Positions 43,961 through 59,742 of a stretch of 64,000 nt of DNA are shown piece after piece. Every line of letters begins with the position of its first letter. Within the stretch, counting starts at the first letter, position 1. The translations under genes and the position numbers were made by a program. Origin of the DNA: Betaproteobacteria bacterium (lineage in GTDB: Bacteria; Pseudomonadota; Gammaproteobacteria; Burkholderiales; Casimicrobiaceae); contig BOKS01000001.1 in assembly GCA_016861105.1 (NCBI GenBank), positions 1 to 64,000 on the forward strand, read 5' to 3'. Under the pieces are notes generated by a model. The model had not been told where the DNA came from, made no database searches, and saw only the letters and a program-made list of their open reading frames with translations.

Positions 43961-43974
43961 CACCACCCCTAAAC

Positions 43975-46046: not shown

Positions 46047-46060
46047 TTGACGCATGTCAA
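46047..46060 (+). promoter_or_regulatory. FNR-type box upstream of the multiheme cytochrome operon
   Basis: TTGACGCATGTCAA is a perfect TTGAC-N4-GTCAA dyad. It differs from the hydrogenase site at 25600 by one base in the centre. Its centre is 129 bases before the ATG at 46183. The expected -10 position (46083-46088) holds a poor match, so the start site is unclear. Confidence 0.65.
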
Positions 46061-46182
46061 TACTGCCGGATTCCGGGCATGTCACTGTCCGATCCGTGTG
46101 CGCGGCGCGCTGTCGCCCGCCTGCGCCAATCGTCCACCGCGTCGATGACCGGCGCCGGCGACGCCCCTGTGGATCCACTGCC

Positions 46183-47424
46183 ATGCCTGCCCCCTCCGTG
46201 CGCGCGCTCCTCCTCGTCCTGCTCCTGACCGCCGCGGGATGCGCGGCCGCCCAGGGCGCCGCCAAGGAGGAGGCCGCCGCCGGGCCGAACGACGGCTGCC
46301 TGATGTGCCACGCGGACCCGTCCGCCAAGTCGGCCGCGGGCAAGGCGATCGCCGTCGATGCGAAGAAGTTCGCCGCGTCCGTGCACGGCGCGATGTCGCT
46401 GCCCTGCACGACCTGCCACGCGGACGTCCAGGAGGGCGTGTTCCCGCACGGCGAGGTCAAGGCCGCGCAGTGCGCGAGCTGCCACGAGCAGGCGGTCAAG
46501 GACTACGCGGGGACCGCGCACGGCAAGGCGCGCAGCGGCGGTCGCGACGTCGCGGCGAGCTGCGCCGACTGCCACGGGGCCCACGACATCGCCAAGCGCG
46601 ACGACCCGGCCTCCCGCGTGCACCGCGCGAACCTCGAGAGCACCTGCGCGTCGTGCCACGGCAACGAGGCGCTGATCCAGCGCGCGAACCTGCCGGGCGG
46701 CAACGTGGCGAGCCGCTACCACGACAGCATCCACGGGCAGGCCATCGCCAACAGGACCTCGGCGCAGGGCGCTGCGCCCACCTGCACGAGCTGCCACGGC
46801 GCGCACGACCTGCGCGGGAAGGACGACCCGGCGAGCAAGGTGGCGCGCGCCAACATCCCGTCGACGTGCGCGACGTGCCACATGAACGCGAAGGCCGAGT
46901 GGGAGAAGAGCCAGCACGGGCGGATCGCCCAGTCGGCCGCCGGCGCGGCGCCGGGCTGCATCGACTGCCACACCGCGCACGACATCGCGCAGCACACCGA
47001 CCCCAAGTTCAAGCTCGCGGTGACCGACCGCTGCGGAACGTGCCACGCGGACTTCGCCGACACCTACCGCGACACGTTCCACGGCCAGGTGACGCAGCTC
47101 GGGTACGCGCAGATCGCGACCTGCGCGAGCTGCCACGGGGCGCACCAGGTGCTGCCGAAGGAGAACCCGCTGTCCAGGGTCTCCGACCAGAACCGCCTCG
47201 CGACCTGCCAGGCCTGCCATCCGAAGGCCAACGCGAACTTCGTCTCGTACGACCCGCACGCCAACCGGCACGTCCGCGAGCAGGGGCAGCTGCTCTTCTT
47301 CACCGGCAAGTTCATGGACTTCCTGCTGCTCGGCGTGTTCTCGGTCTTCGGCCTGCACACCGTCCTGTGGTTCGTCCGGTCGCTGCGCGCGATGCGCGAG
47401 CGGCGCGGCACGCCGCGGCACTGA
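46183..47424 (+). CDS. Undecaheme c-type cytochrome with C-terminal membrane anchor
   Basis: This 413-residue protein has an N-terminal signal (ALLLVLLLTAAGC, a possible lipobox at Cys17). Eleven CxxCH motifs follow: CLMCH, CTTCH, CASCH, CADCH, CASCH, CTSCH, CATCH, CIDCH, CGTCH, CASCH and CQACH. A C-terminal membrane helix (about 376-400, LLLGVFSVFGLHTVLWFVRSL) contains a histidine. Several repeats have CxxCHGAHD followed by HxxxHG motifs, the pattern of stacked bis-His hemes. The next gene is a cytochrome b, 22 bases away, so the two probably form a quinol:cytochrome complex on the periplasmic side. Terminal partner unknown. An FNR-type box precedes it. Confidence 0.88.
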   Translation: MPAPSVRALLLVLLLTAAGCAAAQGAAKEEAAAGPNDGCLMCHADPSAKSAAGKAIAVDAKKFAASVHGAMSLPCTTCHADVQEGVFPHGEVKAAQCASCHEQAVKDYAGTAHGKARSGGRDVAASCADCHGAHDIAKRDDPASRVHRANLESTCASCHGNEALIQRANLPGGNVASRYHDSIHGQAIANRTSAQGAAPTCTSCHGAHDLRGKDDPASKVARANIPSTCATCHMNAKAEWEKSQHGRIAQSAAGAAPGCIDCHTAHDIAQHTDPKFKLAVTDRCGTCHADFADTYRDTFHGQVTQLGYAQIATCASCHGAHQVLPKENPLSRVSDQNRLATCQACHPKANANFVSYDPHANRHVREQGQLLFFTGKFMDFLLLGVFSVFGLHTVLWFVRSLRAMRERRGTPRH

Positions 47425-47446
47425 ACGCTTCCGTAGGAGAGCATCG

Positions 47447-48307
47447 ATGGCTACCCCCGCAACCGCGCTTCCCCGCACGCAGGCCGGCGCCGGCGGCAGG
47501 CACTACCAGCGCTTCGACCTGCTCGACCGGGTCATGCACGGGCTGCTGATGGTCACTTTCATCGGCTGCGCGCTGACCGGGCTGCCGCTGATGGTCGCCG
47601 ACCACGCGTGGGCGCAGTCGTTCAGCCGGATGCTCGGCGGCTTCCAGTCGGCGATGCTGATCCACCGCATCTGCGCCGCGGTGATGATCGTCGTGTTCGT
47701 CGGCCACGTCGCGCGCGTGTTCCTCGACACCGCGCGCTCCGGGAAGTGGCTGGAGATGGTGTGGGGGCCGAACTCGATGGTGCCGAACCTGAAGGACGTG
47801 CAGGACATCGCCGGCCACGTCAGGTGGTTCCTCGGCAAGGGCGAGCGCCCGCGCTTCGACCGCTACACGTACTGGGAGAAGTTCGACTACTGGGCGGTGT
47901 TCTGGGGCATGTTCATCATCGGCGGCTCCGGGCTGCTGCTGTGGTTCCCGTTCTTCTTCGCGCAGTTCCTGCCGGGCTGGGTCTTCAACATCGCGATGCT
48001 CGTGCACGGCGAGGAGGCGCTGCTCGCCGTCGGGTTCATCTTCACGATCCACTTCTTCAACGGTCACGTCCGGCCCGAGAAGTTCCCGATGGACCCGGTG
48101 ATCTTCACGGGCCGCATCAGCGAGCACGAGATGCTCGACGAGCGCGGCGCCGAGTACGACCGGCTCGTCGCGCAGGGACGCCTCGCCGCCGTCGAGGCGC
48201 CGCCGCCGTCGCCGGGCCTTCGCGCGCTGGCCTACGCGATCGGCATTCCGGCCGTGGTGCTCGGCACCGTGACGATCGCGCTGATCGTCTACAGCTTCCT
48301 GTTCTAG
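47447..48307 (+). CDS. Cytochrome b (formate dehydrogenase gamma/b561-like) membrane subunit
   Basis: This 286-residue protein has five hydrophobic segments. Likely heme b ligands lie in DRVMHGLLM (about 27), [10 protein letters not shown] (77) and FVGHVARVF, and in [12 protein letters not shown] and [16 protein letters not shown] of the last part of the core. The set resembles FdnI/HybB-like di-heme b subunits. It would pass electrons between the quinone pool and the 11-heme protein encoded just upstream. A single C-terminal helix (about 260-284) is extra. No catalytic dehydrogenase subunit is adjacent. Confidence 0.85.
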
Positions 48308-48589
48308 CGTCGTGCGCCGCGTGCGAGCGGCTCGCGTGGCGACGTCGCCGGTGCGCCGGCGGGCGCGGCGGGGGGACGCCCGGGCACGAGGCGAGGCGGT
48401 GCCGGCGGCCGTGCAGGGCTCCCGCGACCGGCCGAGGGCACCGTACCCGTCGTGCAGGACGACGGCTGGACAGCGGCCCGGGGCGCCGGCCCCGCGAGCG
48501 CGAGGTCGAAGGGGGGCGCCGAATTGGGTAACATGCCGTCGGCGTCCGCAGGCTCGCGGGCCCGCGGGAACGGACGAGGGGGTGAGGCG

Positions 48590-50002
48590 ATGCTGAGGCT
48601 CAAGCTGGGACGCCGGACGCTGATGCTGGGCGCGGTCAGTTCGCTGCTGCTGGGACTGATCGCGGTGGGCGTGGTCGGCGCGCTGGGCATCGTCGGCTGG
48701 GAGTACTCGAACAGCAACCAGTTCTGCGCGACGATGTGCCACGCGGTCCACCCCGAGGAGATCGTCAACCACGCGGGGTCGTCGCACGCGCGCGTCAACT
48801 GCGTCGAGTGCCACATGGGGCGCACGTCGACGCTGCACCTGATGGCGCTCAAGCCGACGCACTTCAAGGAGCTGTGGGGCATGATCGTCGGCTACGAGCG
48901 GCCGCTGCACGGATCGACGCTGCGCCCGGCGCGCGAGGCCTGCGAGGCGTGCCACTGGCCCGAGAACGAGCACCACGACAAGATCGTGGTGCGCAAGCGC
49001 TTCGCGACGGACGCCGCCAGCTCGCAGCGCGACTACCGGCTCGTGCTGCACACCTCGGCCGGCGTGGATCGCGACGCGACGTGGAAGGCCAGCGGCATCC
49101 ACTGGCACATCGACAACGTGGTCGAGTTCGTGACGACCGACCCGCAGCGCCGCGAGATCCCCTGGGTGCGCATCGTCCGCCCGGACGGTTCGGCCGTCAC
49201 CTACGTCGACAAGGCCTCGAAGCTGTCGCAGGCCGAGCTCGCGAACCTGCAGCCGCGGCGGATGGAGTGCTTCGACTGCCACAACCAGGTCGGGCACCCG
49301 TTCCGCAACCCCGTCGACCTGGTCGACGAGGCGCTCGCGGCCGGCACCATCGACCGCAGCCTGCCGTCGGCCAAGGCCCGTGCCGTCGGCATCATCGACG
49401 CGGTCGGCGACCTCAAGGGGTCGCGCGAGGAGAACGCGGCGCGGATCGACGCGGTCATCGCCGCCGACGCCGCGAAGCATCCGGTGAAGCCGGAGGACCG
49501 CGAGAAGGAGCAGGCGTTCCTCGCGCGGATGAAGGAGATCCTGCTGCGCACGGCCGTGCAGCCGCACGAGGGGGAGTCGTTCACGTGGCGGTCGTTCCCG
49601 AACCACGCGGGGCACAAGGACTTCCCCGGCTGCTTCCGCTGCCACGACGGCAAGCACTTCAACGACAAGGGCGAGGCGATCCGCCTGCAGTGCACGCTGT
49701 GCCACGACCTGCCGCAGGTGAGCGTCGAGAACGGCAAGGGGTCGGTCCCCTCGGTCGTCGCGGCGGGGCTGACGCCGCCGCCGAGCCACAACGAGCCCAA
49801 CTTCATGCACGACCACCGCATGAAGATCGACGAGAGCTGCCAGATGTGCCACGGCAAGATCGAGTTCGGGCGCGAAGGCGGCGCGTTCTGCTCGAATCCC
49901 GCGTGCCACGGCCGCACGTGGCCCGAGGTCAACCTGAACGTCGCCCCGGCGGCGGCGGCGCCGCCGGCCGCGCCCGCACCGGCCACGAAGGCGAAGGGGT
50001 GA
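48590..50002 (+). CDS. NapC/NirT-like multiheme cytochrome with eight heme sites
   Basis: This 470-residue protein has one N-terminal membrane helix (about 12-36) followed by CATMCHAVHPEE (residue 46), a CX3CH site as in some NapC/NirT relatives. CVECH, CEACH, CFDCH, CFRCH, CTLCH and CQMCH follow. The last site is CSNPACH, a CX4CH variant. So there are six standard and two variant heme sites. A 125-residue segment with few cysteines (about 245-345) separates clusters. NapC/NirT proteins oxidise quinol; the extended C-terminal half may contact a periplasmic partner. The ATG at 48590 has GAGGGGGTGAGG upstream. The Ala/Pro-rich tail is likely flexible. The 282 bases upstream show only a weak TAACAT -10 candidate near 48528. 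Confidence 0.85.
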   Translation: MLRLKLGRRTLMLGAVSSLLLGLIAVGVVGALGIVGWEYSNSNQFCATMCHAVHPEEIVNHAGSSHARVNCVECHMGRTSTLHLMALKPTHFKELWGMIVGYERPLHGSTLRPAREACEACHWPENEHHDKIVVRKRFATDAASSQRDYRLVLHTSAGVDRDATWKASGIHWHIDNVVEFVTTDPQRREIPWVRIVRPDGSAVTYVDKASKLSQAELANLQPRRMECFDCHNQVGHPFRNPVDLVDEALAAGTIDRSLPSAKARAVGIIDAVGDLKGSREENAARIDAVIAADAAKHPVKPEDREKEQAFLARMKEILLRTAVQPHEGESFTWRSFPNHAGHKDFPGCFRCHDGKHFNDKGEAIRLQCTLCHDLPQVSVENGKGSVPSVVAAGLTPPPSHNEPNFMHDHRMKIDESCQMCHGKIEFGREGGAFCSNPACHGRTWPEVNLNVAPAAAAPPAAPAPATKAKG

Positions 50003-50150: not shown

Positions 50151-50438
50151 ATGAAACCGATCCTGATCGCGCTGGCCGCCGCCGCGAGCCTCGCCGTCGC
50201 GGGCGCCGCGAGCGCCCAGAGCGGCCCCGACCTGTTCAAGTCGAAGGGCTGCGGCACCTGCCACGCGCCCGACGCGAAGAAGATGGGCCCGTCGCTCAAG
50301 GACATCGCCGCGAAGAACAAGCCGGACGCCGCCGACAAGATCGCGGCCGCGCTGAAGGAAGGCAAGGGCCACCCGAAGGTCGCGGCCTCCGACGCCGAGA
50401 TCAAGGCGATGGTCCTCTACACGATCACCGGCAAGTAG
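50151..50438 (+). CDS. Small class I cytochrome c (c551/c552-like), first copy
   Basis: This 95-residue protein has a signal peptide (about 1-23) and one heme site, CGTCH at about 34-38. The axial methionine is probable in MGPSLKDIA or in the C-terminal AMVLYTITGK. It is a soluble periplasmic electron carrier. A close paralogue occurs at 59385: both share SKGCGTCH-like and GKGHPKVAASDAE stretches, so the two bracket the island. A GAGGAG ribosome site lies before the ATG at 50151. Confidence 0.92.
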   Translation: MKPILIALAAAASLAVAGAASAQSGPDLFKSKGCGTCHAPDAKKMGPSLKDIAAKNKPDAADKIAAALKEGKGHPKVAASDAEIKAMVLYTITGK

Positions 50439-50451
50439 CCGGTCGGCCGCC

Positions 50452-50484: not shown

Positions 50485-50503
50485 ATTGGCGCAGACGGTT
50501 CCC

Positions 50504-52168
50504 ATGCCGCCCGACCGATCGTCGCGGCGCTTCGCGCTGCGCCTCCTCGCGAGTGCCGCCGCGCTGCGGCTGTCCGGGGTGTCGCGCGCGCACGCGGTGG
50601 CGACGCAGCGAGTTCCGGGACCGCTGCTCGAGGGCATGGGCCGCTACACGCTGGCGGGCGCGGCGGCGGACGCGAAGGTCCAGCGTTACGTCGACCAGGG
50701 CATGGTCCTCGCGTTCGGCTTCAATCCGGCGGAGGCGGCGCGCTCCTTCGAGTCGGCCATCGCACTCGACGCGAAGTGCCTCGCCGCATGGTGGGGGCTC
50801 GCGTGGTCGCTCGGGCCGACGATCAATGCCGACATGGCGGATGCCGACCGGCCGCGCGTCGAGGCCGCGGTGGCGCGCGCGGCAGCGCTCGCGCGCCGCG
50901 CGCGATCCCGGTTTCGCGATCTCGCCGAGGCGCTCGCGGTGCGGCACCCGCGCGGACGTCCGCTGGACGAGGAGGCGTACGCATCACGCATGCGCGCGCT
51001 CGCGAAGCGCCACGCCGACGACGCCGACGTCCAGATGCTGGCCGCCGAAGCGCTCATGAACCTCCACCCCTACGACTGGTGGCAGCCCGACGGCCGGCCG
51101 CAGCCGTGGACGGAGGAGATCGACGCGCTGCTTGCGCGCGCCATCGCGCTCGATCCGGATCACCCCGGTGCGCTGCACTACCGCATCCACCTCCACGAGT
51201 CGTCGCCGCGCCCGGAGGCCGCGCTCGACGCGGCCGACCGGCTCGTCGCGCTGGTGCCGGGCTCGGGACACCTGCTGCACATGCCCGCGCACATCTACAT
51301 GCGCACGGGCCGCTACGCGGACGCGTCGGCCGCCAACCGCCGCTCGATCGCGGCCGACGAGCGCTACCTCGCGCAGGTCGACGCGCAGGGCGCCTACCGG
51401 GTCGGCTACGTCGCGCACAACCACCACTTCCTGTACGCGTCGGCGGCGATGCAGGGTCGTTCGGCCGAGGCGACCGCCGCCGCGCGCGCTGCGTGGCCCG
51501 CCGCCTGCGGCCCGCGGCCCGGCGATCGCAGCACGGCGATCCTGCAGCACTACTCGCTGCTGCCGCTCCACGCGCTGGTGCGCTTCGGGCGCTGGAAGGA
51601 GATCCTCGCCGGCACGCTGCCGCCCGACGTCGCCGAGCCTTATCCGCTGGCCATCTGGCACTACGCGCGCGGCACGGCGCTCGTGCGAAGCGGCGAGGCG
51701 CGCGCGGCGCGCGAGGCGCTGGCGCGCGTGGAGCGGTTCGCCGCCGATCCGGCGTTGCAGGCGGTGCGCGTCAAGAACATCAACGCGGCGGCGTCGCTCG
51801 CGCGCATCGCCGCGCTGACGCTGCGCGCCGACGTCGACCTGGCGGAGCGGCGGGCGGCGGACGCCGTCGAACGGTTGCGGGAGGCGGTCGCCGTCGAGGA
51901 CGCGCTGACCTACGACGAGCCTCACCTGTGGCTCGCGCCGACGCGCCACGCGCTCGGCGCGGCGCAACTCGCCGCCGGCCGCGGCGGCGACGCCGAGCGC
52001 ACCTTCCGCGCCGATCTCGCGCACTACCCGGAGAACGGCTGGTCGCTGATCGGGCTGGCGCGCAGCCTGCGCGCGCAGGGTCGCAACGAAGCCGCGAAGG
52101 ACGTCGACCGCCGCTTCCGCACCGCGTGGGCCGACGCGGACGTGCGCATCGACGGCTCGCGCTTCTGA
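50504..52168 (+). CDS. Exported TPR repeat protein
   Basis: This 554-residue protein has an N-terminal SSRRFALRLLASAAALRL segment that looks like a twin-arginine or Sec signal. Helical repeats follow, typical of tetratricopeptides: YVDQGMVLAFGFNPAEAARSFE, LLARAIALDPDHPGALHY, and C-terminal LGAAQLAAGRGGDAERTF. A histidine-rich block (LHYRIHLHESS, LLHMPAHIYMRTGRYADASA, HNHHFLYASAAM) at about 222-315 could bind metal or heme. Proteins with this HMPAHIY motif are widespread and uncharacterised. It converges with a rhodanese gene. Confidence 0.82.
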   Translation: MPPDRSSRRFALRLLASAAALRLSGVSRAHAVATQRVPGPLLEGMGRYTLAGAAADAKVQRYVDQGMVLAFGFNPAEAARSFESAIALDAKCLAAWWGLAWSLGPTINADMADADRPRVEAAVARAAALARRARSRFRDLAEALAVRHPRGRPLDEEAYASRMRALAKRHADDADVQMLAAEALMNLHPYDWWQPDGRPQPWTEEIDALLARAIALDPDHPGALHYRIHLHESSPRPEAALDAADRLVALVPGSGHLLHMPAHIYMRTGRYADASAANRRSIAADERYLAQVDAQGAYRVGYVAHNHHFLYASAAMQGRSAEATAAARAAWPAACGPRPGDRSTAILQHYSLLPLHALVRFGRWKEILAGTLPPDVAEPYPLAIWHYARGTALVRSGEARAAREALARVERFAADPALQAVRVKNINAAASLARIAALTLRADVDLAERRAADAVERLREAVAVEDALTYDEPHLWLAPTRHALGAAQLAAGRGGDAERTFRADLAHYPENGWSLIGLARSLRAQGRNEAAKDVDRRFRTAWADADVRIDGSRF

Positions 52169-52180
52169 AGCGCGCACGGA

Positions 52181-52207
52181 GCGCGGGCGCGGCGCTTGCG
52201 CCCGCGC
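52181..52207. terminator. Bidirectional hairpin between converging TPR and rhodanese genes
   Basis: GCGCGGGCGC (52181-52190) pairs with GCGCCCGCGC (52198-52207) around a 7-base loop between two stop codons of converging genes. No long T-run on either side. Confidence 0.55.
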
Positions 52208-52221
52208 GCTGTGCCTTACCC

Positions 52222-52737
52222 CTACTTCGCGACCGGGTAGGCCTTGGTGATCGAGCCGTTGATCGCGTCGAGCGTTGAGGCGGTCGGCGGCGCCGGCGAC
52301 CACGCCATGTAGCCCCACTTCATCGCGTACGCGTCGTAGCCGAGCAGGCGCAGCACGGTCAGCACCTTGTTCTGCTGCTGGCCGGTGTCGCAGTGCACGA
52401 TCACCTTCTTGTCCTTCGGCAGCAGCGCAAGCGACTCCGGCTTCGCGACGTCCTGCGCGGCGATGAACACCGCGTTCGGCAGGTGCGCGACGTCGAATTT
52501 CTTCGCCTTGGGCACGCGCACATCGACGATCACGAAGTCGGTCCGTCCTTCGCGGATCATCTTCGCGACGTCATCGGCCAGGAACTCGTAGTAGTTCTTG
52601 TCGGGCAGGCTGGACAGGTACTCGTTGCCGAGCTTCTGCACGATCCGGTACTCCTCCGGCGTGAGCGCGGCGGCGCTGCCGGCGCCGAGGGCGACGGCGA
52701 GCGTGCAGAGCGCGAGTCTGAGGGCGGGTCGCTTCAT
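52222..52737 (-). CDS. Exported single-domain rhodanese (sulfurtransferase)
   Basis: This 171-residue protein has a signal peptide (about 1-24) and one rhodanese domain (about 40-165), with the active cysteine C116 in HCDTGQQQN. Rhodaneses carry sulfane sulfur as a cysteine persulfide. The enzyme is periplasmic and divergent from the PsrA-like gene (268-base shared upstream region 52738-53004), so the two are likely co-regulated. An AAAGGAGG ribosome site (RC of 52743-52750) precedes the ATG. Confidence 0.88.
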   Translation of the reverse strand: MKRPALRLALCTLAVALGAGSAAALTPEEYRIVQKLGNEYLSSLPDKNYYEFLADDVAKMIREGRTDFVIVDVRVPKAKKFDVAHLPNAVFIAAQDVAKPESLALLPKDKKVIVHCDTGQQQNKVLTVLRLLGYDAYAMKWGYMAWSPAPPTASTLDAINGSITKAYPVAK

Positions 52738-53004
52738 CGGAAACCTCCTTTCGTGGCCTGCGCGCGGGGGCACGCGCCGCATCGAACATGACGCGCAGCG
52801 CATATCAACTGCGGCGCATGCGTGGACTTCGATCCCCACTCTACACAGTGAATCGGGCGAGTTTCTGATGCGGCGCAAGCATCCGTCGGCGTGGATGTGA
52901 GCGGGGTCAAGTCCGCATCCGTGCGCATGAAGCAAAGTGCTCACGTGGGCGGCGGCATCGGTTTTCGGCGTCGCCTGCCGGATGTCACCGTTCACGAGGA
53001 CGCG

Positions 53005-55200
53005 ATGGAACAGCTCTCACGCAGGCGCTTCCTGAAGATCTCCGCCGCCACGTTCACGGCCGCCGCCGCGGTGACGCGACTGCCTGACGCGGTGCGCGTC
53101 GCCGGCGCCGCGGAAGCCGAGAAGGGCGTCAGGACCGTTCCGACGTTCTGCGAAATGTGCTTCTGGCGCTGCAGCGGCATCGCGCACGTGCGCGATGGGA
53201 AGCTCTGGAAGTTCGAAGGCAATCCCAACGACCCGCAGAGCCGCGGACGCCTGTGTCCGCGCGGCACCGGCGCGGTCGGTGCCTACTACGACCCCGACCG
53301 GCTGCAGAAGCCGCTGATCCGCACGAGCGCGCGCGGCAAGGACGCGTGGAAGGCCGTGACCTGGGACGAGGCGCTGGCCTACGTCGCCGAGCGGATGCAG
53401 AAGATCAAGGCCGAGCACGGGGCCGAGTCGATCGCGATGTTCAACCACGGCATCGGCGTGCGCATGCTGCAGCACGTGCTGAAGAGCTACGGCTGCACGA
53501 ACTTCGCGGGGCCCTCGTTCGCCCAGTGCCGCGGCCCGCGCGACATCGGCTTCCTGCTCACGATGGGCACAGGGCTGGGCTCGCCCGAGCCCACCGACAT
53601 CGCGAACACGGACTGCCTCGTGCTGATCGGCTCGCACCTGGGCGAGAACATGCACAACACGCAGGTGCAGGAGTTCGCACAGGCCGTCGCGCGGCGCATC
53701 AGCATCATCGTCGTCGACCCGCGCTACTCGGTCGCGGCGAGCAAGGCGAAGCACTGGCTGCCGATCCGGCCCGGCACCGACCTCGCATTGATCCTCGCGT
53801 GGATGAACGTGATCGTCGCCGAGGGGCTGTACGACCGCGCGTTCGTCGAGCGCCACGGCCACGGCTTCGACAGGTTCGCCGCGGAGATCGCGGCCAGCAC
53901 GCCCGAGTGGGCGGCGGGCGAGACGGGCATCGACGCCGGCCTGATCCGGACGACAGCCCGCGAGATCGCGCGCCACCGCCCGGCGTCGCTCGTGCACCCC
54001 GGGCGGCGCGTCAACTGGAACGGCGACGACGCGCAGCGCAGCCGCGCGGTCGCGCTGCTCAACGCGCTGCTGGGCAACTGGGGTCGCAAGGGCGGGATCT
54101 ACCTGCAGGCGGGCATGCGGGTCGCGTCGTATCCGCTGCCGAAGTACCCCGCGTCCACGCGGCCGCTCGCCGACAACCCGAACCAGGAGCGCTACCCGTT
54201 CGCCGACGAGCCGGTCACGACGGGGCTGCGGGACGCCACGATCAGCGGCAAGCCGTATCCGATCAAGGCGTGGTGGGTGTACTCGACCAATCTCATGCAG
54301 GCGCTGCCCAACCCGGCCGAGACGCTGAAGGCGATCGACCAGCTCGACCTGCTGGTGGTGTGCGACACCGTGCCCTCGGACATCGCCGGCTACGCCGACG
54401 TCGTCCTGCCGGAAGTGACGTTCCTCGAGCGCCACGACGAGCTGCTCGTCGGCTGGGGACGGCAGGGATGGACGTCGCTGCGCCAGCCGGTGATGCCCGC
54501 CCCGGCCGACCAGAAGCCGGGCTGGTGGATCGCGAAGGAGCTCGCCGGCAAGCTCGGCATCGCGCAGTGCATGCCGTTCAAGGACATGGCGGAGTACCTC
54601 GCCACGCGCGTCGAGAAGTCGGGCCTGTCGTGGGAGACGCTGAAGAACGATGGCGTGATCATGGGCCCGAAGATGCCGATCACCGTTGAGGAAGGCGCGG
54701 AGTTCGCGTTCGACACGCCGTCCGGCAAGGTGGAGTTCTGGTCGGATCAGCTCGTGAAGGCGGGCTTCGACCCGGTGCCGAAGTACAAGGCGCCGGCCCC
54801 GCTGCCCGAGGGCTTCTTCCGCCTGGTCACGGGCCGCTCGCCGGTCCACACGTTCAGCCGCACGCAGTCCAATCCGCTGCTCGCCGGGCTGATGAGCGAC
54901 AACGAGGTGTGGATCAACGCCGCGACCGCCGCGAAGCTCGGGATCGCGAACGGGCAGTTCGTGACGCTGCGCAACCAGGACGGCGTCGCGAGCAACCGCG
55001 TGCGCGTCAAGGCGACGCAGCGCATCCGACCCGACACCGTCTACATGGTGTACGGCTTCGGCCAGACGAACCCGCGCAACCGGCGAACGTTCGGCAAGGG
55101 GGCCTCGGCGGCGCAGCTCAACACGCGCTACGCCACCGACCCGCTGATGGGCGGCACGAGCCTCCACGGCAACTACGTCGCGATCGAGCAGGAGGCTTGA
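53005..55200 (+). CDS. psrA: PsrA/PhsA-like molybdopterin oxidoreductase catalytic subunit
   Basis: This 731-residue Mo enzyme has a Tat signal (SRRRFLKIS, 5-13) and a [4Fe-4S] site at C49, C52, C56 and C84. Cysteine C175 in SFAQCRGPRD sits where PsrA/PhsA have the molybdenum ligand. A C-terminal Mo-bisMGD binding domain contains TGRSPVHTFSRTQSNP. The length (730-765 is usual) and PsrBC partners indicate a polysulfide, thiosulfate or sulfur reductase or the reverse reaction. Arsenate (ArrA) and arsenite (ArxA) enzymes are related but longer. The adjacent ArsR-like regulator keeps arsenic as an alternative. The start ATG at 53005 directly precedes the signal. Confidence 0.9.
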   Translation: MEQLSRRRFLKISAATFTAAAAVTRLPDAVRVAGAAEAEKGVRTVPTFCEMCFWRCSGIAHVRDGKLWKFEGNPNDPQSRGRLCPRGTGAVGAYYDPDRLQKPLIRTSARGKDAWKAVTWDEALAYVAERMQKIKAEHGAESIAMFNHGIGVRMLQHVLKSYGCTNFAGPSFAQCRGPRDIGFLLTMGTGLGSPEPTDIANTDCLVLIGSHLGENMHNTQVQEFAQAVARRISIIVVDPRYSVAASKAKHWLPIRPGTDLALILAWMNVIVAEGLYDRAFVERHGHGFDRFAAEIAASTPEWAAGETGIDAGLIRTTAREIARHRPASLVHPGRRVNWNGDDAQRSRAVALLNALLGNWGRKGGIYLQAGMRVASYPLPKYPASTRPLADNPNQERYPFADEPVTTGLRDATISGKPYPIKAWWVYSTNLMQALPNPAETLKAIDQLDLLVVCDTVPSDIAGYADVVLPEVTFLERHDELLVGWGRQGWTSLRQPVMPAPADQKPGWWIAKELAGKLGIAQCMPFKDMAEYLATRVEKSGLSWETLKNDGVIMGPKMPITVEEGAEFAFDTPSGKVEFWSDQLVKAGFDPVPKYKAPAPLPEGFFRLVTGRSPVHTFSRTQSNPLLAGLMSDNEVWINAATAAKLGIANGQFVTLRNQDGVASNRVRVKATQRIRPDTVYMVYGFGQTNPRNRRTFGKGASAAQLNTRYATDPLMGGTSLHGNYVAIEQEA

Positions 55201-55201
55201 C

Positions 55202-55741
55202 ATGGCCCGCTACGGAATGGTCATCGACACCCGCAAGTGCGTCGGGTGCATGGACTGCGTCGTCGCCTGCCAGACCGAGAACTCGGTGCCGCAGGGCTAC
55301 TGCCGCGACTGGATCACCACCGAGGTGCGGGGCGAGTTCCCGTCGCTGACGATGGAGATCCGCTCGGAGCGCTGCAACCACTGCGACAACCCGCCGTGCG
55401 TGTCGTGCTGCCCGACGGGCGCCTCGCACGTCGAGCCCGACGGCCGCTTCGTGCACGTGACGGCCAGCCGCTGCATCGGCTGCAAGGCGTGCATCGCGTC
55501 CTGCCCGTACGGCGCCCGCTTTGTGCATCCGGACGGCTACGTCGACAAGTGCACGTTCTGCGCGCACCGCGTGCGTCAGGGCCAGGACCCGGCGTGCGTC
55601 TCGGTCTGCCCGACGCGCTGCATGTACTTCGGCGACCTCGACGATCCGCAGAGCAAGGTGAGCGAACTGCTCCGCACGCGCAGGTGGCACGTCCTGCTGC
55701 CCGACGCCGGCACGAAGCCGCGCGTCTACTACCTGAGCTAG
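55202..55741 (+). CDS. psrB: PsrB/PhsB-like 4Fe-4S electron-transfer subunit
   Basis: This 179-residue protein has four [4Fe-4S] cluster motifs: KCVGCMDCVVAC, CNHCDNPPCVSCCP, CIGCKACIASCP and CTFCAHR..DPACVSVCP. It links the catalytic subunit to the membrane subunit. It starts 1 base after psrA. There is no signal of its own; such subunits are exported with the Tat partner. Confidence 0.95.
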   Translation: MARYGMVIDTRKCVGCMDCVVACQTENSVPQGYCRDWITTEVRGEFPSLTMEIRSERCNHCDNPPCVSCCPTGASHVEPDGRFVHVTASRCIGCKACIASCPYGARFVHPDGYVDKCTFCAHRVRQGQDPACVSVCPTRCMYFGDLDDPQSKVSELLRTRRWHVLLPDAGTKPRVYYLS

Positions 55742-55750
55742 GAGCCGACG

Positions 55751-56797
55751 ATGCTCGAGATCACCACGACGCGGCACAATCCGCTGATCGACCCGCAGCT
55801 GCACGTCTGGGGCTGGGAAATCCCGCTGTACCTGTTCGTCGGCGGCGTCGTCGCCGGCATGATGGTGATCGCGGGCCTCGCGATGCTGCGCACCGCGAAG
55901 GGCGAGGACACGGCGCGGTTCTTCTCGGTGCAGACGCCGCTCCTCGCGTTCGTGCTGCTCAACGTCGGCATGCTCGCGTTACTGCTCGACCTCGCGCACC
56001 CGCTCTACGTGTGGGCCGTCTACCTGACGTTCGAGCCGGCCTCGCCGATGTCGTGGGGCTCGTGGGTGCTGCTGCTCGTCTACGCGATCCTGCTGGTCTC
56101 CGCGCTCGTCCGGCTGCACGAGGCGTGGCCGTGGCTCGGCCGCACGCTTCCGGCCGTCGAGCGCTGGTCGGACGCGATCACGCGAAGCCCCGCGCGCCTG
56201 GCGCTGCTCGGCTGGATGAACGTCGTCTTCGGCGTGGCCGTGGGCATCTACACGGGGATCCTGCTCAACACGATGGTGGCGCGGCCGCTGTGGAACACCT
56301 CGGTGCTGCCGGTGCTGTTCCTCGTCTCGGGCGTGTCGGCCGGCGCCGCGGCTATGCACCTCGCGTCGCGCTTCTTCGGCCGGCGCCCGGCGCCGCAAGG
56401 CCTCGTCGCCGGCTTCCTGTCGGCGCTGGCGCAGCCGCTCGGACCGCAGCCGCCGGAGAAGTCGACGGTCGACACGCTGATCCGCGCCGACGTCGCGCTG
56501 CTCGCGCTCGAGCTCGTGCTGCTGGCGCTGCTGGTCCTCGGAATGCTCACGTCGACCGCCTCGCACGCGGCGGCCGCCGCGCTCGTCCTCGGCGGCCCGT
56601 ACACGCTCGCGTTCTGGGGCGCCATCGTCGTCGCCGGCATCCTCGTTCCGATCCTGCTGCAGTCGCTGGAGCTGTCGCGGCGCATCCCGCACACCGTGCT
56701 GCCGGCGCTGCTGGTCCTCGCCGGCGGCTACGTGCTGCGCTGGGTCATGGTCAATGCCGGCCAGGCTTCCGAAATCGTCCAGGCCGCGGCGCGCTGA
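55751..56797 (+). CDS. psrC: PsrC/NrfD-like quinol-interacting membrane subunit
   Basis: This 348-residue protein has about eight to nine membrane helices. Family signatures include WGWEIPLYLFVGGVVAGMMVIAG, HPLYVWAVYLTFEPASPMSWGSW and GVYTGILLN-like VGIYTGILLNTMVARPLWN. It lacks heme and exchanges electrons with quinones, coupling to PsrB. It completes the PsrABC complex. ATG at 55751 lies 9 bases after psrB. Confidence 0.93.
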   Translation: MLEITTTRHNPLIDPQLHVWGWEIPLYLFVGGVVAGMMVIAGLAMLRTAKGEDTARFFSVQTPLLAFVLLNVGMLALLLDLAHPLYVWAVYLTFEPASPMSWGSWVLLLVYAILLVSALVRLHEAWPWLGRTLPAVERWSDAITRSPARLALLGWMNVVFGVAVGIYTGILLNTMVARPLWNTSVLPVLFLVSGVSAGAAAMHLASRFFGRRPAPQGLVAGFLSALAQPLGPQPPEKSTVDTLIRADVALLALELVLLALLVLGMLTSTASHAAAAALVLGGPYTLAFWGAIVVAGILVPILLQSLELSRRIPHTVLPALLVLAGGYVLRWVMVNAGQASEIVQAAAR

Positions 56798-56852
56798 ACC
56801 GCGCCGCCGCAGTTTCGGTTCGCACCCTTTTCCCACCGCAAGGAGACGCACC

Positions 56853-57326
56853 ATGACCTTCCGCAAAACCTCCCTGGTCGTCGCGGTCGCCCTCGCCTCC
56901 GCGTTCGCGCTGTCCCCCGTCGTCCAGGCGCAGAACTACCCGCCGGCCGTGTCGCAGCTGGTCGCGGCGACGAAGAAGCAGGTGAAGACGATCAGCATGG
57001 CCGAGTTCAAGGCCGCGTTCGACCGCAACGCGCTGGGCACGATCGTCGACGTCCGCGAGCCCGAGGAGTACGCGGACGGCTTCATCCCCGGCGCCGTGAA
57101 CGTGCCGCGCGGCCTGCTCGAGTTCACGATCTGGAAGCACGTCGGCTTCCCTGACAAGACCGACATGGCCAAGCAGATGACGCTGTACTGCAAGACGGGC
57201 GGCCGCTGCGCGCTCGCGACGAAGTCGCTGATGGAACTCGGATTCACGAACGTCACGTCGGCCGACATGAAGATCGAGGACTGGCAGAAGGCCGGCTATC
57301 CGCTGGCGAAGCCCAAGGCGCAGTAG
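56853..57326 (+). CDS. Exported single-domain rhodanese
   Basis: This 157-residue protein has a signal peptide (about 1-26, ending VQAQN) and one rhodanese domain with VDVREPEEYADGFIPGAVNVP. The active cysteine is C113 in YCKTGGRCALA; a second cysteine (C119) closes the loop. It follows psrC by 55 bases with AAGGAG. It may hand sulfane sulfur to or from the PsrA-type enzyme. Confidence 0.92.
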   Translation: MTFRKTSLVVAVALASAFALSPVVQAQNYPPAVSQLVAATKKQVKTISMAEFKAAFDRNALGTIVDVREPEEYADGFIPGAVNVPRGLLEFTIWKHVGFPDKTDMAKQMTLYCKTGGRCALATKSLMELGFTNVTSADMKIEDWQKAGYPLAKPKAQ

Positions 57327-57354
57327 CGGAACCCGGCGGCACCAGGGCGAAGCG

Positions 57355-57774
57355 ATGTCCACCGAGCGCCAGGAGGCGACCCGCGTCGACGACGGCCGCG
57401 GGCCGCACGCGCCCGCCGGCGCGGGCCCGATCGGCGCGGAGCGGCTGTTCGAGCTGCTGGCCGACGGCACGCGCCGGCGCCTTCTCGCGCTGCTGCTCGA
57501 CCACCGCGAGATCTGCGTGTGCCGTCTCGTCGGCGCGCTCGCCAAGCCGCAGCCGAAGATCAGCCGGCACCTCGCGTTGATGCGCGAAGCCGGCCTGCTC
57601 ATCGCACGGCGCAAGGGCACGTGGATCCTCTATCGCTTCGACCCGCAGGTGCCCGGGTGGGCCATGCGGGTCGTGGCGACGATGGTCGACGGCACACGCG
57701 CCGATCCGCTGTGCGCGGCCGACAGCCGCAGGCTGGAAGAGCTTCGGCTCTGCGGCGAGGGCGGCTATCCATGA
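57355..57774 (+). CDS. ArsR-family winged-helix regulator with CVC motif
   Basis: This 139-residue DNA-binding protein has an N-terminal disordered stretch and a winged helix from about residue 28. The alpha-3 motif REICVCRLVGAL has the Cys pair C54/C56, as in As(III)/Sb(III)-sensing ArsR (ELCVCDL). The recognition helix is KISRHLALMREAGLL. It lies inside the sulfur operon between two rhodanese genes, so it may repress this island until a thiophilic metalloid or a reactive sulfur species binds the cysteines (inference). No ars detoxification genes are close. Confidence 0.9.
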   Translation: MSTERQEATRVDDGRGPHAPAGAGPIGAERLFELLADGTRRRLLALLLDHREICVCRLVGALAKPQPKISRHLALMREAGLLIARRKGTWILYRFDPQVPGWAMRVVATMVDGTRADPLCAADSRRLEELRLCGEGGYP

Positions 57775-57821
57775 CCGGGCGGCGCGTGGGCCGCCGACGA
57801 CGAACCAGAAAGGAGATGCGC

Positions 57822-59204
57822 ATGTCCCGCACGATGACCCTGGCGCTGCTCGCGACGCTGGCCGCGATGGCGGCGGCGCCGGCCGCCGCCCAGGCGCCGG
57901 CCGCGAAGCCGACGATCCCGCAGGTGTGCACGAACTGCCACCAGGCGCGGCCCGACGCCCTGCAGGGCATCTTCGAGAACGTCGCGTTCAAGAGCCAGGC
58001 GATCCAGCTCAAGATCGACGCGCACACCGAGATCGTCCGTTTCGACCCCAAGACACTCAAGGTGGTCGACGCCGGCGTCGCGAAGCCGGTCGACGCGCTG
58101 CGCGACGTGGCGAAGAACAAGGAGGCGCGCATCGACTACGTGATGCGTGACGGGCAGCGCTTCGCGGCGCAAATCACGTTCAAGGGCCCGATCAAGATCG
58201 CGCCCGAGAAGCTCGTCGCCTACGAGGAGGTCGAAAGGCTGGTCGCGCTCGGCCCGGACAGGGGCGGCTACACGCTGATCGACTCGCGCCCGCTGCCGCG
58301 CGTCCAGGAGGGCACGATCCCGGGAGCGATCAACCTGCCGTACCCGGCGTTCGACAAGTTCGTCGACCGTCTGCCGAAGGACAAGTCGCGCCTGACGATC
58401 TTCTTCTGCCAGGGCGTCACCTGCATGATGAGCCCGAACTCGCTGCGGCGCGCGGAGGCACTCGGCTACACGAACGTACGCGTCTACCGCGAAGGCTATC
58501 CCGAGTGGCAGGAGCGCAACGTCGGCGTGCTGGCCGCGCCGCACCTCAAGGAGGCGTGGATCGACAAGCGCATCCCGCACGTGCTACTCGACGTGCGCCC
58601 CGCCTCGACGGCCGGCGCGGGCTTCATCCCCGGCGCGGTCTCGATGCCTCCCTCGGGCCTGCGCGCCGCGCTGTCCGGCCTCCCCGATCCGAAGCTCAAC
58701 GCGCCCATCATCGTCTACGACGTCGACGGCAGCACGGCCGCTCTCCAGGTGGCGCGCGTGATCAAGGCCTCGGGCCAGGCGAACGTGACGATGCTCGCCG
58801 GCGGCTACGACGCGTGGGCGGCGGCGAAGCTCCCCGTCGCGACGACGCCGCTTCTCACCCGGGTCGCCTACGTGCCGAAGCCGCGGCCCGGATCGATCCC
58901 GAACGCCGAATTCCTGCGGCTTGCGAAGGAGACGCCGGCGAACGTGATCATCCTCGACGTGCGCAACAGCGACGAGGCCAACGCCGGCATGATCCGCGGC
59001 GCCAAGCTCATCCCGGACGAGGAGCTGGCCGCGCGGATGGCGGAGCTGCCCAAGGACAAGCGCATCGTCGCCCACTGCGCGACCGGCGTGCGCGCCGAGA
59101 TGGCGTATCACAAGCTCAAGGCCGCCGGGTACGACGCGGGCTTCGTCTACGCGGAGCTGGCCATCGACAAGCGCGGCGCCATTCGGCTGACGCCGAGGTT
59201 CTGA
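57822..59204 (+). CDS. Cytochrome c-triple rhodanese fusion protein
   Basis: This 460-residue exported protein has a signal peptide (about 1-24), a single heme site CTNCH (36-40), and a beta-rich linker domain (about 50-125). Three rhodanese domains follow: at about 130-235 (C196 in FFCQGVTCMMS), 240-340 (Asp300 in the catalytic position, IVYDVDGS) and 350-455 (C419 in HCATGVRAEM). So the first and third carry active-site cysteines and the middle one does not. The ATG at 57822 is chosen since AAAGGAG lies six bases before it. A heme next to sulfur-carrying domains suggests oxidation or reduction of bound sulfane sulfur coupled to a cytochrome chain (inference). Confidence 0.9.
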   Translation: MSRTMTLALLATLAAMAAAPAAAQAPAAKPTIPQVCTNCHQARPDALQGIFENVAFKSQAIQLKIDAHTEIVRFDPKTLKVVDAGVAKPVDALRDVAKNKEARIDYVMRDGQRFAAQITFKGPIKIAPEKLVAYEEVERLVALGPDRGGYTLIDSRPLPRVQEGTIPGAINLPYPAFDKFVDRLPKDKSRLTIFFCQGVTCMMSPNSLRRAEALGYTNVRVYREGYPEWQERNVGVLAAPHLKEAWIDKRIPHVLLDVRPASTAGAGFIPGAVSMPPSGLRAALSGLPDPKLNAPIIVYDVDGSTAALQVARVIKASGQANVTMLAGGYDAWAAAKLPVATTPLLTRVAYVPKPRPGSIPNAEFLRLAKETPANVIILDVRNSDEANAGMIRGAKLIPDEELAARMAELPKDKRIVAHCATGVRAEMAYHKLKAAGYDAGFVYAELAIDKRGAIRLTPRF

Positions 59205-59225
59205 CCGTCGCGGCCGGTCGGCGGT

Positions 59226-59246
59226 GCGGGCGCCTGCGGCGCCCGC
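59226..59246. other. Hairpin between the fusion gene and the second small cytochrome
   Basis: GCGGGCGCC-TGC-GGCGCCCGC forms a 9-bp stem just after the sulfurtransferase stop. There is no T-tract. A possible -10 (TAGGAT, 59267-59272) follows, but I see no good -35. Confidence 0.4.
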
Positions 59247-59384
59247 GCTGCGGTTTCCCGGCATGGTAGGATCATCGCGCTGTCGGCGAAAGGGGGGTGT
59301 CGCGCGTTGTGGGAGGGGCCGTCCGGCGAACCCTGCGCGCGACTGAGCCGGGACAGCGATGCCTACTTCAAGGAGAACCGGGAC

Positions 59385-59681
59385 ATGAAGTCGACGATGA
59401 TCGCACTGGTCGCGGCGGCAAGCCTCGTGGCGGCCGGAACGGTGCTGGCGGCGTCGGGGGCGGACCTCGCCAACGCCAAGGGCTGCGGCACGTGCCACGC
59501 CGCGGACGCGAAGAAGGTCGGGCCGTCGTGGAAGGACGTCGCCGCGAAGAACAAGGACAACAAGGGCGCCTCGGAGAAGGTCGTCACCATGCTGAAGGAC
59601 GGCAAGGGCCACCCGAAGGTGGCGGCCTCGGACGCCGAGCTGAAGGCGCTGGCCGCGTTCGCGCTGGCGGGCGGCAAGTAG
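59385..59681 (+). CDS. Small class I cytochrome c, second copy
   Basis: This 98-residue protein has a signal peptide (about 1-23) and one heme site, CGTCHAADAKKVGPS. It is clearly paralogous to the cytochrome at 50151, with GKGHPKVAASDAE identical in both. It lacks the methionine seen after AKK in the first copy (V instead of M), so the sixth ligand must lie elsewhere (for example in VVTMLKDG). Ribosome site AAGGAG (59371-59376) precedes the ATG. A terminator follows. Confidence 0.92.
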   Translation: MKSTMIALVAAASLVAAGTVLAASGADLANAKGCGTCHAADAKKVGPSWKDVAAKNKDNKGASEKVVTMLKDGKGHPKVAASDAELKALAAFALAGGK

Positions 59682-59710
59682 CGCCGGCAGGAATTGCCGA
59701 TCGCTGCATC

Positions 59711-59742
59711 GGGAGGGCCGGCGCCGCCGGCCCTCCCGTTTT
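59711..59742 (+). terminator. Rho-independent terminator after the second small cytochrome
   Basis: GGGAGGGCCGGC (59711-59722) pairs with GCCGGCCCTCCC (59726-59737) around a 3-base loop and is followed by GTTTT. It closes the island. Confidence 0.85.

Follow-up and report, generated by a model that had tools for sequence, protein, structure and literature searches.

The juxtaposition of multiheme cytochromes and a PsrABC-type sulfur enzyme within 13.7 kb of a betaproteobacterial contig (positions 46047–59742 of the 64,000-nt stretch analyzed here, herein the window) raises the question of whether the two form one respiratory system or simply lie side by side. The original prediction treated them as a single electron-transfer and sulfur island and, indeed, every element that it listed is present in the sequence (table 1); however, the region is not one transcription unit, because the rhodanese gene F, situated between E and G, is read from the opposite (minus) strand. 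It consists of two modules, the quinone-linked cytochromes A-B-C (46.2–50.0 kb) and a PsrABC-rhodanese sulfur module (~50.1–59.7 kb). Nor is the 13.7-kb island the natural unit, which is larger and includes a [NiFe]-hydrogenase and MtrAB-type genes. Genes were called with a codon-usage script, clusters were named by BLAST with representatives checked against Pfam, and membrane segments were taken from a simple hydropathy scan; an Rfam scan of 44–62 kb gave no matches.

Table 1. Features of the window, in order of position.
Feature	Position	Strand	Remarks
MtrA-like decaheme cytochrome	12933–13874	+	TIGR03508, 230.9 bits (cut-off 192.2)
MtrB/PioB-like barrel	13895–16120	+	TIGR03509, 206.8 bits (slightly below cut-off 240)
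Perfect FNR-type box ahead of hydrogenase operon	25600–25613	+	Exact; the only other such site is the one ahead of A
[NiFe]-hydrogenase operon: small, large and cytochrome b subunits, accessory genes	25724–43954	+	
Formyltransferase-crotonase fusion, HoxX-type	44278–45978	+	Pfam domains
Perfect FNR-type box upstream of A, TTGACGCATGTCAA	46047–46060	+	
A: 11-CXXCH cytochrome with C-terminal membrane segment, N-half of CbcL/MtrH/MtoC protein	46183–47421	+	
B: cytochrome b, C-half of CbcL/MtrH/MtoC protein	47447–48304	+	
C: ImcH-like NapC-type cytochrome, eight heme sites, single N-terminal membrane segment	48590–49999	+	
D: small secreted cytochrome c	50151–50435	+	
E: TPR protein, Psr module member	50504–52165	+	In 7/22 Psr loci, window included
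F: secreted single-domain rhodanese, divergent from PsrA	52225–52737	-	Same place in L047, 66%
G: PsrA-like molybdoenzyme with Tat signal	53005–55197	+	
H: PsrB-like iron-sulfur protein	55202–55738	+	
I: PsrC/NrfD-like membrane protein	55751–56794	+	
J: secreted single-domain rhodanese	56853–57323	+	In 1/22 Psr loci, window only
K: ArsR-family regulator with Cys-x-Cys pair	57355–57771	+	NF007528, 98.1 bits (cut-off 97)
L: secreted, CXXCH/OB-barrel domain and three rhodanese domains	57816–59201	+	
Cys203 codon of L, sixth residue of rhodanese-1 loop	58422–58424	+	TGC in the window; nine homologues have TGA
M: small secreted cytochrome c, D paralogue	59385–59678	+	
T-tailed terminator-like hairpin, 13 pairs	59710–59738	+	

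By their sequence traits, A-B-C belong with the quinone-linked cytochromes of extracellular electron transfer. The CbcL/MtrH/MtoC family is characterized, in the consulted part of its description (PMC6295460), as a single polypeptide with a heme-rich N-terminal half (3–23 CX2CH motifs) and a HydC/FdnI-like cytochrome b, whose relatives adjoin MtrAB-type genes. A has 11 CXXCH motifs and a C-terminal hydrophobic segment, which bears out the predicted 11-heme membrane-anchored protein, and its partner B, as anticipated, is a cytochrome b that aligns at 35–47% with the cytochrome b half of 15 relatives and scores just below the PF01292 cut-off (29.8 vs. 30.1 bits). The pair differs from the described family in being split into two ORFs, in the window as in eight relatives (six others of the set are fused), and in lying 30 kb from the MtrAB-like genes of the window. 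The family has six membrane segments; the simple hydropathy scan shows four in B and one, C-terminal, in A. The predicted eight heme sites of C comprise six CXXCH, one CX3CH and one CX4CH. Like ImcH (CX3CH with 5–9 CX2CH in the consulted part of PMC6295460), C has a NapC/NirT-like core with the atypical CX3CH first and six CX2CH, and its heme spacing is that of three-segment relatives; unlike ImcH, it has one membrane segment, 470 aa and an additional CX4CH. We rejected C as a full ImcH on segment number and length (three segments and 495–519 aa in the Geobacter group); four C relatives from the Nitrospirota phylum have three segments and 502–511 aa. Whereas imcH genes are described without mtrAB alongside (PMC6295460, in the part consulted), C-type genes lie near MtrA-like genes at three loci (L134, L135 and L137). 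A-B and C look like the two quinol-linked multiheme routes that had been proposed. A plasmid search with C gave no match. The two small cytochromes, D and M, are paralogues as predicted and sit one in each block; D/M-like cytochromes occur in 13 of 16 A/B/C stretches, and relatives of D flank A-B-C elsewhere.

The sulfur module is built around PsrABC (G, H and I), as originally described. G has an RRRFLK Tat motif and Fe4S4, molybdopterin and dinucleotide-binding Pfam domains above cut-off, and H (Fer4_11) and I (NrfD), also above cut-off, have the traits of Psr/Phs B and C subunits. The PhsA equivalog model NF012032 scores G at 516.8 bits, below its cut-off of 694, and we therefore rejected an assignment as PhsA. 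Polysulfide and thiosulfate as Psr/Phs substrates are unreadable from sequence according to the consulted parts of two sources (PMC13047784, PMC7887784). PsrABC and periplasmic rhodaneses recur together as a module at other Psr loci, among them L039 of the cultured Rubrivivax sp. A210, and E supplies the expected TPR protein. Of the three rhodanese proteins and five rhodanese domains predicted, Pfam recovers all (one domain each in F and J, three in L), but the loop cysteine is kept in four only, the middle rhodanese of L being without it. A YeeE/YedE sulfur-transporter pair accompanies 16 of 22 Psr loci (fused to a rhodanese domain at one of them), a figure that, like those for L, represents no unbiased sample because most Psr loci were found through L (14 directly, with 6 more via PsrA in L-chosen genomes); none of the YeeE/YedE proteins of the source genome is the Psr-linked pair.

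L is the most unusual component of the sulfur module. A comparator is Sud of Wolinella succinogenes, which we take to be a periplasmic rhodanese-type protein that works with PsrABC and hands polysulfide sulfur to Psr, and which is presumably small, single-domain and free of heme, unlike L. The predicted cytochrome-rhodanese fusion holds insofar as CXXCH and rhodaneses are joined in L; however, the motif sits on a CusF/OB-like barrel and not on a recognized cytochrome c fold. Heme on L is suggested by the CXXCH motif, which is present in 30 of 30 aligned sequences (once as CX3CH); the domain has no second invariant His or Met, and Lys59 is invariant. Rhodanese 3 has a conventional transferase loop, and the loop of rhodanese 1 carries a C-x4-C pair that is probably C-x4-Sec elsewhere: position 203 is Cys in 21 homologues and an in-frame UGA in all nine others. 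We rejected frameshifts as the origin of the short split L genes at these nine loci, since every break is an in-frame TGA at the same codon. Each of the nine is followed by a SECIS-like hairpin with 6–7 of 7 pairs (Mann–Whitney 2.6e-5 with relatedness ignored; one of the seven pairs is broken in 3/9), and selA is present in eight of the nine genomes; the nine rows are mostly related Nitrospirota and not independent. The UGA homologues are probably a selenoprotein form of rhodanese that is so far unlisted. L of the window, with TGC at this site, is not a selenoprotein, and selA was not found in the source genome (85% complete). One further locus (L067), whose frame is broken without that TGA, was left out of the alignment, loop and hairpin counts and retained in neighborhood and genome counts, such that the sequence set covers 29 of 30 loci and the window. 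A plasmid search with L found no place covering 80% of the protein.

Two described proteins resemble L in part. TsoB, a rhodanese/DsbD-like selenoprotein (NF045694; PMC13188914, in the part consulted), also has two catalytic positions six residues apart in the rhodanese loop, tolerant of Sec (UxxxxU), whereas the loop of L reads CxxxxC or CxxxxU and the protein has two additional rhodaneses and a CXXCH/OB domain; we rejected L as TsoB, as it scores far below the model cut-off (57.5 bits, with 76.6 for P0001, against 805). A comparable Psr operon has been described in Desulfurivibrio dismutans (RS06465–06490; PMC12142623): its PsrABC-type enzyme and secreted three-rhodanese sulfurtransferase are upregulated during sulfur disproportionation, and a porin, YeeE/YedE and other secreted sulfurtransferases belong to the same physiology. 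The consulted part of that account calls the triple-rhodanese protein a predicted lipoprotein, likened to L here by description, and is silent on heme motifs, OB domains and selenocysteine. The claim that the combination has no named match fails for its parts, which CbcL/MtrH/MtoC and ImcH (PMC6295460) and this operon (PMC12142623) match, as far as the consulted sections of both sources go. Searches of the open literature turned up no account of a protein joining CXXCH to three rhodaneses, a CxxxxU rhodanese or the wider locus considered below.

Do the two modules belong together? Among 21 genomes with a PsrA orthologue, C is present in 16 and B in 16 (the five without C and the five without B are all drafts), although these genomes are mostly L-chosen and many are related betaproteobacteria, so that the co-occurrence may reflect shared ancestry. 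When up to five candidates were scored per genome, neither the 299 other genomes of the order sample nor the 298 of the phylum sample gave a match to C; B is present in 28 of the phylum-sample genomes. One outcome that was to refute the original prediction was that the blocks almost never co-occur, and the genome-level counts (16/21 vs. 0/299) contradict such near-absence. Direct adjacency is another matter: C lies near PsrA at 0 of the 17 other loci with enough DNA, and A/B/C adjoin PsrABC at one of 22 Psr loci, that of the window (upstream DNA was too short at 4 of the 21 other loci for C, 7 for B and 15 for the whole of A). Psr-L and A/B/C share a contig in 3 of 15 genomes with PsrA, B and C, the remaining drafts being broken, and are separated by 201 kb in G339 and by ~26–33 kb in G347 and G351.

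Two genomes, G347 and G351, each hold hydrogenase genes, A-B, C, HoxX, an MtrAB-like pair and Psr-L in a single cluster of ~47–57 kb, which resembles the 12.9–59.7 kb span of the window, where MtrAB, hydrogenase, HoxX, A-B, C and Psr-L follow one another. The link between the blocks therefore holds within a larger super-locus, as clustering in three genomes and genome-level co-occurrence rather than as direct adjacency elsewhere. The MtrA-like and MtrB/PioB-like pair is predicted to be its outer-membrane conduit. The hydrogenase operon has confirmed HypC, HypF and HypE-type accessory genes, in an order identical in G347; we presume that HoxX is the right name for the formyltransferase-crotonase fusion, relatives of which (57–64%) adjoin Hyp genes, A-B/C or L, and Hyp/HoxX genes adjoin A/B/C in 7 of 16 stretches. 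Such groupings in other bacteria suggest that there is a reason for the set being retained together.

Alternatively, the modules could be bystanders, with A-B-C serving extracellular electron transfer, Psr-L serving periplasmic sulfur respiration and a common anaerobic lifestyle favoring both. The absence of C from the 17 other Psr loci, a genome (G332) with C and no Psr orthologue, the separate strands and units around F, and the regulatory sites are what one would expect from this. The predicted FNR box at the start of the region is exact, one of two TTGAY-N4-RTCAA sites in 64 kb (0.03 expected), and the same scan found no exact box at the Psr unit. A start of A at 46054 was rejected because it falls inside the box; 46183 or 46198 fits. 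Seven of eight split-form relatives have an exact box 100–129 bp 5' of A, which counts in favor of the super-locus; exact boxes also precede 17 of 222 other genes in these stretches, some sharing the same gap; the hydrogenase of G347 has no FNR box upstream. The predicted terminator at the other end is the longest stem among eight terminator-like sites in the scan (5.0 expected). Set against independence are the one-cluster arrangement of G347, G351 and the window and the D and M paralogues in both blocks, and we regard bystander modules as possible but doubtful.

We consider it fairly probable that the 46–59.7 kb region is the downstream portion of a larger super-locus for respiration, in which each module is a branch of one quinone pool, with a direct Mtr route and a sulfur-shuttle route to outside acceptors. 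The hydrogenase would supply electrons; A-B, as a split CbcL/MtrH/MtoC complex, and the ImcH-like C would draw them from quinol for delivery to the MtrAB-type conduit, with D/M-like small cytochromes as the probable intermediates. PsrABC would exchange electrons between quinone and periplasmic polysulfide or thiosulfate, with the secreted rhodaneses bringing sulfane sulfur to PsrA, or taking it away, in the form of cysteine persulfide. L may be a specialized carrier in which the C-x4-C (or C-x4-Sec) pair of rhodanese 1 alternates between dithiol and disulfide states; a heme on the CXXCH of L, if there is one, could let electrons pass to the small cytochromes. Together, the modules would most likely serve to reach outside acceptors directly via Mtr and indirectly via a shuttle of Psr-made sulfide and polysulfide. 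Counting against this reading, D. dismutans carries its Psr/triple-rhodanese operon in an organism described, in the consulted part of the source, without an Mtr link (PMC12142623).

The direction of electron flow might also be the reverse, with Psr-L oxidizing sulfide or polysulfide and feeding the quinone pool or, through an L heme, the cytochromes, and the electrons ending up in A-B-C/Mtr or an oxidase. A sulfurtransferase that bears a cytochrome-type motif and adjoins small cytochromes would suit an oxidase-linked path, and the CbcL/MtrH/MtoC family is held to run in both directions (PMC6295460, in the part consulted). We think this rather unlikely: the nearest described system is interpreted as reductive (PMC12142623, likewise in part), the only strong solved match of PsrA is deposited as a thiosulfate reductase, ImcH is known only as a quinol oxidase in the consulted part of PMC6295460, and the hydrogenase in the same cluster suggests that a donor is already there.

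The presence of a hydrogenase, two kinds of quinol-oxidizing cytochrome, MtrAB and Psr-rhodanese together in several genomes points to a respiration that might have both a direct and a sulfur-mediated route to outside acceptors; if so, the debated sulfur shuttling in metal reduction gains a definite gene set. More tentatively, we envisage sulfur-shuttled extracellular respiration in which H2 electrons exit via A-B/C-MtrAB or as Psr-made sulfide and L catches returning sulfane sulfur; L might then be the founding member of a heme-wired redox rhodanese family whose C-x4-C/C-x4-Sec pair couples persulfide formation or cleavage directly to periplasmic electron transfer, and the Nitrospirota form would be a so far unlisted selenoprotein. 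L makes it testable whether rhodaneses exchange electrons besides carrying sulfur, and the natural Cys/Sec exchange at residue 203 singles out the residue to alter.

The predicted ArsR regulator is confirmed in K, above its subfamily cut-off and with a Cys-x-Cys pair, and PsrABC might on that account act with K on arsenic or thioarsenic compounds. Such a role is very improbable, and we rejected it as the main one: K occurs at just 1 of 22 Psr loci, PsrA matches ArrA at 109.5 bits vs. 634.8 for the Thermus enzyme, and the rhodanese and YeeE/YedE neighbors indicate sulfur. Separately, a CsoR-type regulator is found at six Psr loci, where comparison with solved relatives did not separate copper sensing from persulfide sensing.

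Every element of the inventory originally predicted at 46047-59742 is present according to gene calls, heme motifs and Pfam (see table), within a 64-kb stretch at the start of a 796-kb contig from a 4.49-Mb genome that is 85% complete. Because F lies on the opposite strand from its neighbors E and G, the island comprises at least two plus-strand units. GC content over F to PsrC (52001-56000) is approximately 0.69 versus 0.76 just downstream, a difference that alone says little on transfer, as 14-16 and 26-28 kb are equally low.

Features of the window, of one contig from each of two genomes named Rubrivivax sp. (G347, G351), and L homologues with a probable selenocysteine
Sequence	Feature	Position	Remarks
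Window	MtrA-type decaheme cytochrome	within 12.9-16.1 kb	score above family cut-off
Window	MtrB/PioB-type barrel	within 12.9-16.1 kb	score slightly below family cut-off
Window	[NiFe]-hydrogenase operon	25.7-43.9 kb	upstream of island, same strand; subunits, HypC, HypF, HypE-type protein identified
Window	formyltransferase-crotonase fusion	44278-45978	after hydrogenase operon; Pfam domains; presumably of the HoxX kind
Window	perfect TTGAY-N4-RTCAA box		110 bp upstream of hydrogenase small subunit
Window	perfect TTGAY-N4-RTCAA box		122 bp upstream of A
Window	A		11-heme cytochrome
Window	B		cytochrome b
Window	C		NapC-like cytochrome, eight heme sites
Window	D		small cytochrome c
Window	E		TPR protein
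Window	F		rhodanese; minus strand; between E and G
Window	G-H-I		PsrABC
Window	J		rhodanese
Window	K		ArsR family
Window	L		CXXCH and three rhodaneses
Window	M		small cytochrome c
G347 C30	L-PsrC-PsrB-PsrA-TPR	0.4-7.6 kb	
G347 C30	hydrogenase operon	from 19.4 kb	accessory genes and order as in window
G347 C30	A-B	33.9-35.9 kb	fused
G347 C30	C	36.0-37.4 kb	
G347 C30	HoxX	37.4-39.1 kb	
G347 C30	two small cytochromes, 10-heme cytochrome		after HoxX
G347 C30	MtrA-like	43.6 kb	
G347 C30	MtrB-like	44.6 kb	
G351 C126	hydrogenase accessory genes	from 31.4 kb	
G351 C126	A-B	41.1-43.0 kb	
G351 C126	C	48.6-50.0 kb	
G351 C126	HoxX	69.5-71.2 kb	
G351 C126	L-YedE-YeeE-PsrCBA-TPR	71.3-79.9 kb	
G351 C126	MtrB-like	84.8 kb	preceded by three small cytochromes
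G351 C126	MtrA-like	86.9-87.9 kb	
L049, L051, L053, L057, L058, L061, L063, L065, L066	L homologue		probable Sec (UGA) at sixth rhodanese-loop residue; SECIS-like hairpin

The original prediction joined the cytochrome block A-B-C (46.2-50.0 kb) to the PsrABC-rhodanese part (the Psr module, about 50.1-59.7 kb), a link that is supported in a wider form, as a super-locus with hydrogenase, HoxX and MtrAB, but not as an adjacent pair. In a census of 22 PsrABC loci (14 reached via L, the secreted triple-rhodanese protein, 6 via PsrA in L genomes, the window and its same-genus relative G010), A, B, C, J and K were found in the window alone; C was absent from all 17 of the 21 other loci that hold enough upstream DNA, and B from all 14 and A from all 6 whose upstream DNA reaches that far. 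At the genome level, however, the two blocks co-occur: among 31 genomes searched (the 30 L genomes plus G010), B was found in 26 and C in 20 (with at least 55% identity over nearly full length in 10), and the 21 genomes with a PsrA orthologue include 16 with B, 16 with C (one a fragment) and 15 with both. C was found in none of the 299 other genomes in the order sample and none of the 298 in the phylum sample; against this background its association with the PsrA orthologue is strong, although the genomes carrying both were chosen through L and are related to one another. The window holds MtrAB, V/A-ATPase, hydrogenase, HoxX, A-B-C and Psr-L within 47 kb, and the occurrence of the same modules in three independent layouts (window, G347 and G351) is hard to put down to chance. 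PsrA and B share one contig in G339, 201 kb apart, and lie on separate contigs of drafts in the remaining genomes with both. Between C and HoxX-L in G351 (C126:55322-65280) are multiheme cytochromes with 11, 5, 9, 4 and 4 CXXCH motifs and a barrel-like gene.

Of 16 fetched A/B/C stretches, 8 have A and B as separate genes (split form) and 6 as one fused gene; in one of the other two a contig end truncates A, and the last contains only C. Every complete A (14 of 14) carries 11 CXXCH. C is present in 15 of the 16 stretches, and 13 include a small cytochrome of the D/M kind. Genes for hydrogenase accessory proteins or HoxX occur in 7, and an MtrA-like gene and V/A-type ATPase genes resembling the set at 17-25 kb of the window occur in 3 each. 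The two perfect FNR boxes (see table) are the only ones in the 64-kb window, versus 0.03 expected. Among split-form loci, 7 of 8 have an exact box 100-129 bp upstream of A. None of the 6 fused-form loci has one; in four of them a site with one mismatch is found at 90-109 bp. Exact sites within 400 bp also precede 17 of 222 other genes. The V/A-type ATPase operon of the window (17335-25370, minus strand; ATP-synt_D, two ATP-synt_ab and V_ATPase_I by Pfam) resides in a betaproteobacterial-type genome, and its relatives adjoin A-B-C in L128, L131 and L132. In L138 (7317-10380) and L139 (9985-13045), A-B and C are separated by genes for a 6-heme cytochrome, a membrane protein and an iron-sulfur protein that is PsrB-like (36-37%), which make up an additional complex of the quinone type within the cluster. 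A tandem repeat array (43971-44104; 51-bp unit, 2.6 copies, 97% matches, also with an 18-bp period) separates the HypE-type and HoxX genes of the window.

The claim that the island has no textbook counterpart holds for the combination only, as each single module is a variant on a known type; neither the combination of modules nor L was found described in the literature searched. B has matches in 29 of 299 genomes of the phylum sample (own genome counted), and 36 of 38 non-own matches fall in open frames 634 aa or longer. Among 15 fetched relatives, 14 combine A and B in a single protein that pairs a cytochrome b half with 8-9 CXXCH (the fifteenth, L101, has only 3 CXXCH in 487 aa), and MtrA-like and MtrB-like genes adjoin 4, with Pfam MtrB_PioB confirmed in both MtrB-like genes tested. 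In the available part of PMC6295460, such fused proteins are the family described as CbcL/MtrH/MtoC, and ImcH, a NapC/NirT-like cytochrome, has three membrane segments, a CX3CH and six CX2CH; C shares this heme pattern but has one membrane segment. Matches to C in 4 of 148 genomes of the Nitrospirota (34-37% identity), the phylum of the L locus L053, fit that description of ImcH in both segments and hemes (PMC6295460).

A search of 84,980 species genomes gave 30 L loci: 8 from Nitrospirota, 2 from Deltaproteobacteria and 20 from genomes that mostly bear betaproteobacterial names (Rubrivivax, Leptothrix, Burkholderiales). PsrABC lies within 10 kb of L in 14 of them. A PsrA orthologue (at least 51% identity, E limit 1e-150) is encoded by 20 of these genomes, all belonging to the 21 whose L lacks UGA, and by none of the 9 with UGA; in a sample of 61 relatives, such a PsrA occurs only in the window's own genome and G010 (next best 36% identity). 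Across the 22 Psr loci we found L in 15, a YeeE/YedE transporter pair in 16 (a seventeenth, L060, is cut by a contig end), a FadL-type porin in 8, TPR in 7, a CsoR-type regulator and a Psr-linked ArsR in 6 each, a two-domain rhodanese in 5 (two more entries are L itself), and an F-like rhodanese and D/M-like cytochrome in 2 each, with gene groups confirmed by Pfam on representatives. The window's version of the module is missing the YeeE/YedE pair. In a deltaproteobacterial psr operon (L112:6895-8088), a YedE half-transporter is fused to a rhodanese domain (Pfam). In six betaproteobacterial loci (L040-L043, L045, L046), the neighborhood of L presumably includes iron-sulfur-cluster genes (IscU, IscS, HscA and others, recognized from sequence clusters), and PsrABC sits elsewhere in 5 of the 6 genomes.

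We propose that a quinone would be reduced by H2 and the quinol oxidized by A-B and C, with electrons passing towards the small cytochromes and MtrAB, and that PsrABC would spend quinol on reducing sulfane sulfur delivered by L and other rhodaneses. Sulfide made by Psr could pass electrons to acceptors outside the cell and come back as sulfane sulfur; we note that a FadL-type porin recurs near the Psr module. The described operon closest to this one, which includes a secreted protein with three rhodaneses, is read as reductive in the available part of its source (PMC12142623).

Thirty aligned L sequences keep C38, C41, H42, K59, C198, C/U203 and C421, with CX3CH in place of CXXCH in L052. The rhodanese 1 loop reads C198-x-G-x-T-C203, that of rhodanese 2 is without cysteine and that of rhodanese 3 is conventional. 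The full model has a mean pLDDT of 84.6 and is weak in the CXXCH stretch; the isolated N-terminal domain reaches 93.2, and its best solved match is CusF, of OB-type fold (E 5.7e-4; TM-score 0.50 by query, 0.64 by target).

Nine L genes are apparently split, each by one in-frame TGA at the C203 codon, which is TGC or TGT in the 21 others. Counted from the U of UGA, positions 18-36 hold a hairpin of seven pairs, of which the nine sequences form 6-7 and the 21 form 1-6 (mean 4.0). Mean folding z is -1.86 versus -0.18, and selA scores above cut-off in 8 of 9 UGA genomes versus 9 of 22 others (one-sided Fisher 0.018). Because a residue that alternates between Cys and Sec is usually redox-active, we view rhodanese 1 of L as doing redox chemistry; through the predicted heme and the C198/C203 pair, L could couple electron exchange to the release or loading of sulfur. 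The available text of a 2026 review lists five rhodanese selenoprotein forms, including TsoB (UxxxxU), with CxxxxU absent from that text, and the UGA form of L therefore looks like an unlisted one (PMC13188914). Genes of this type are easily misannotated as two genes.
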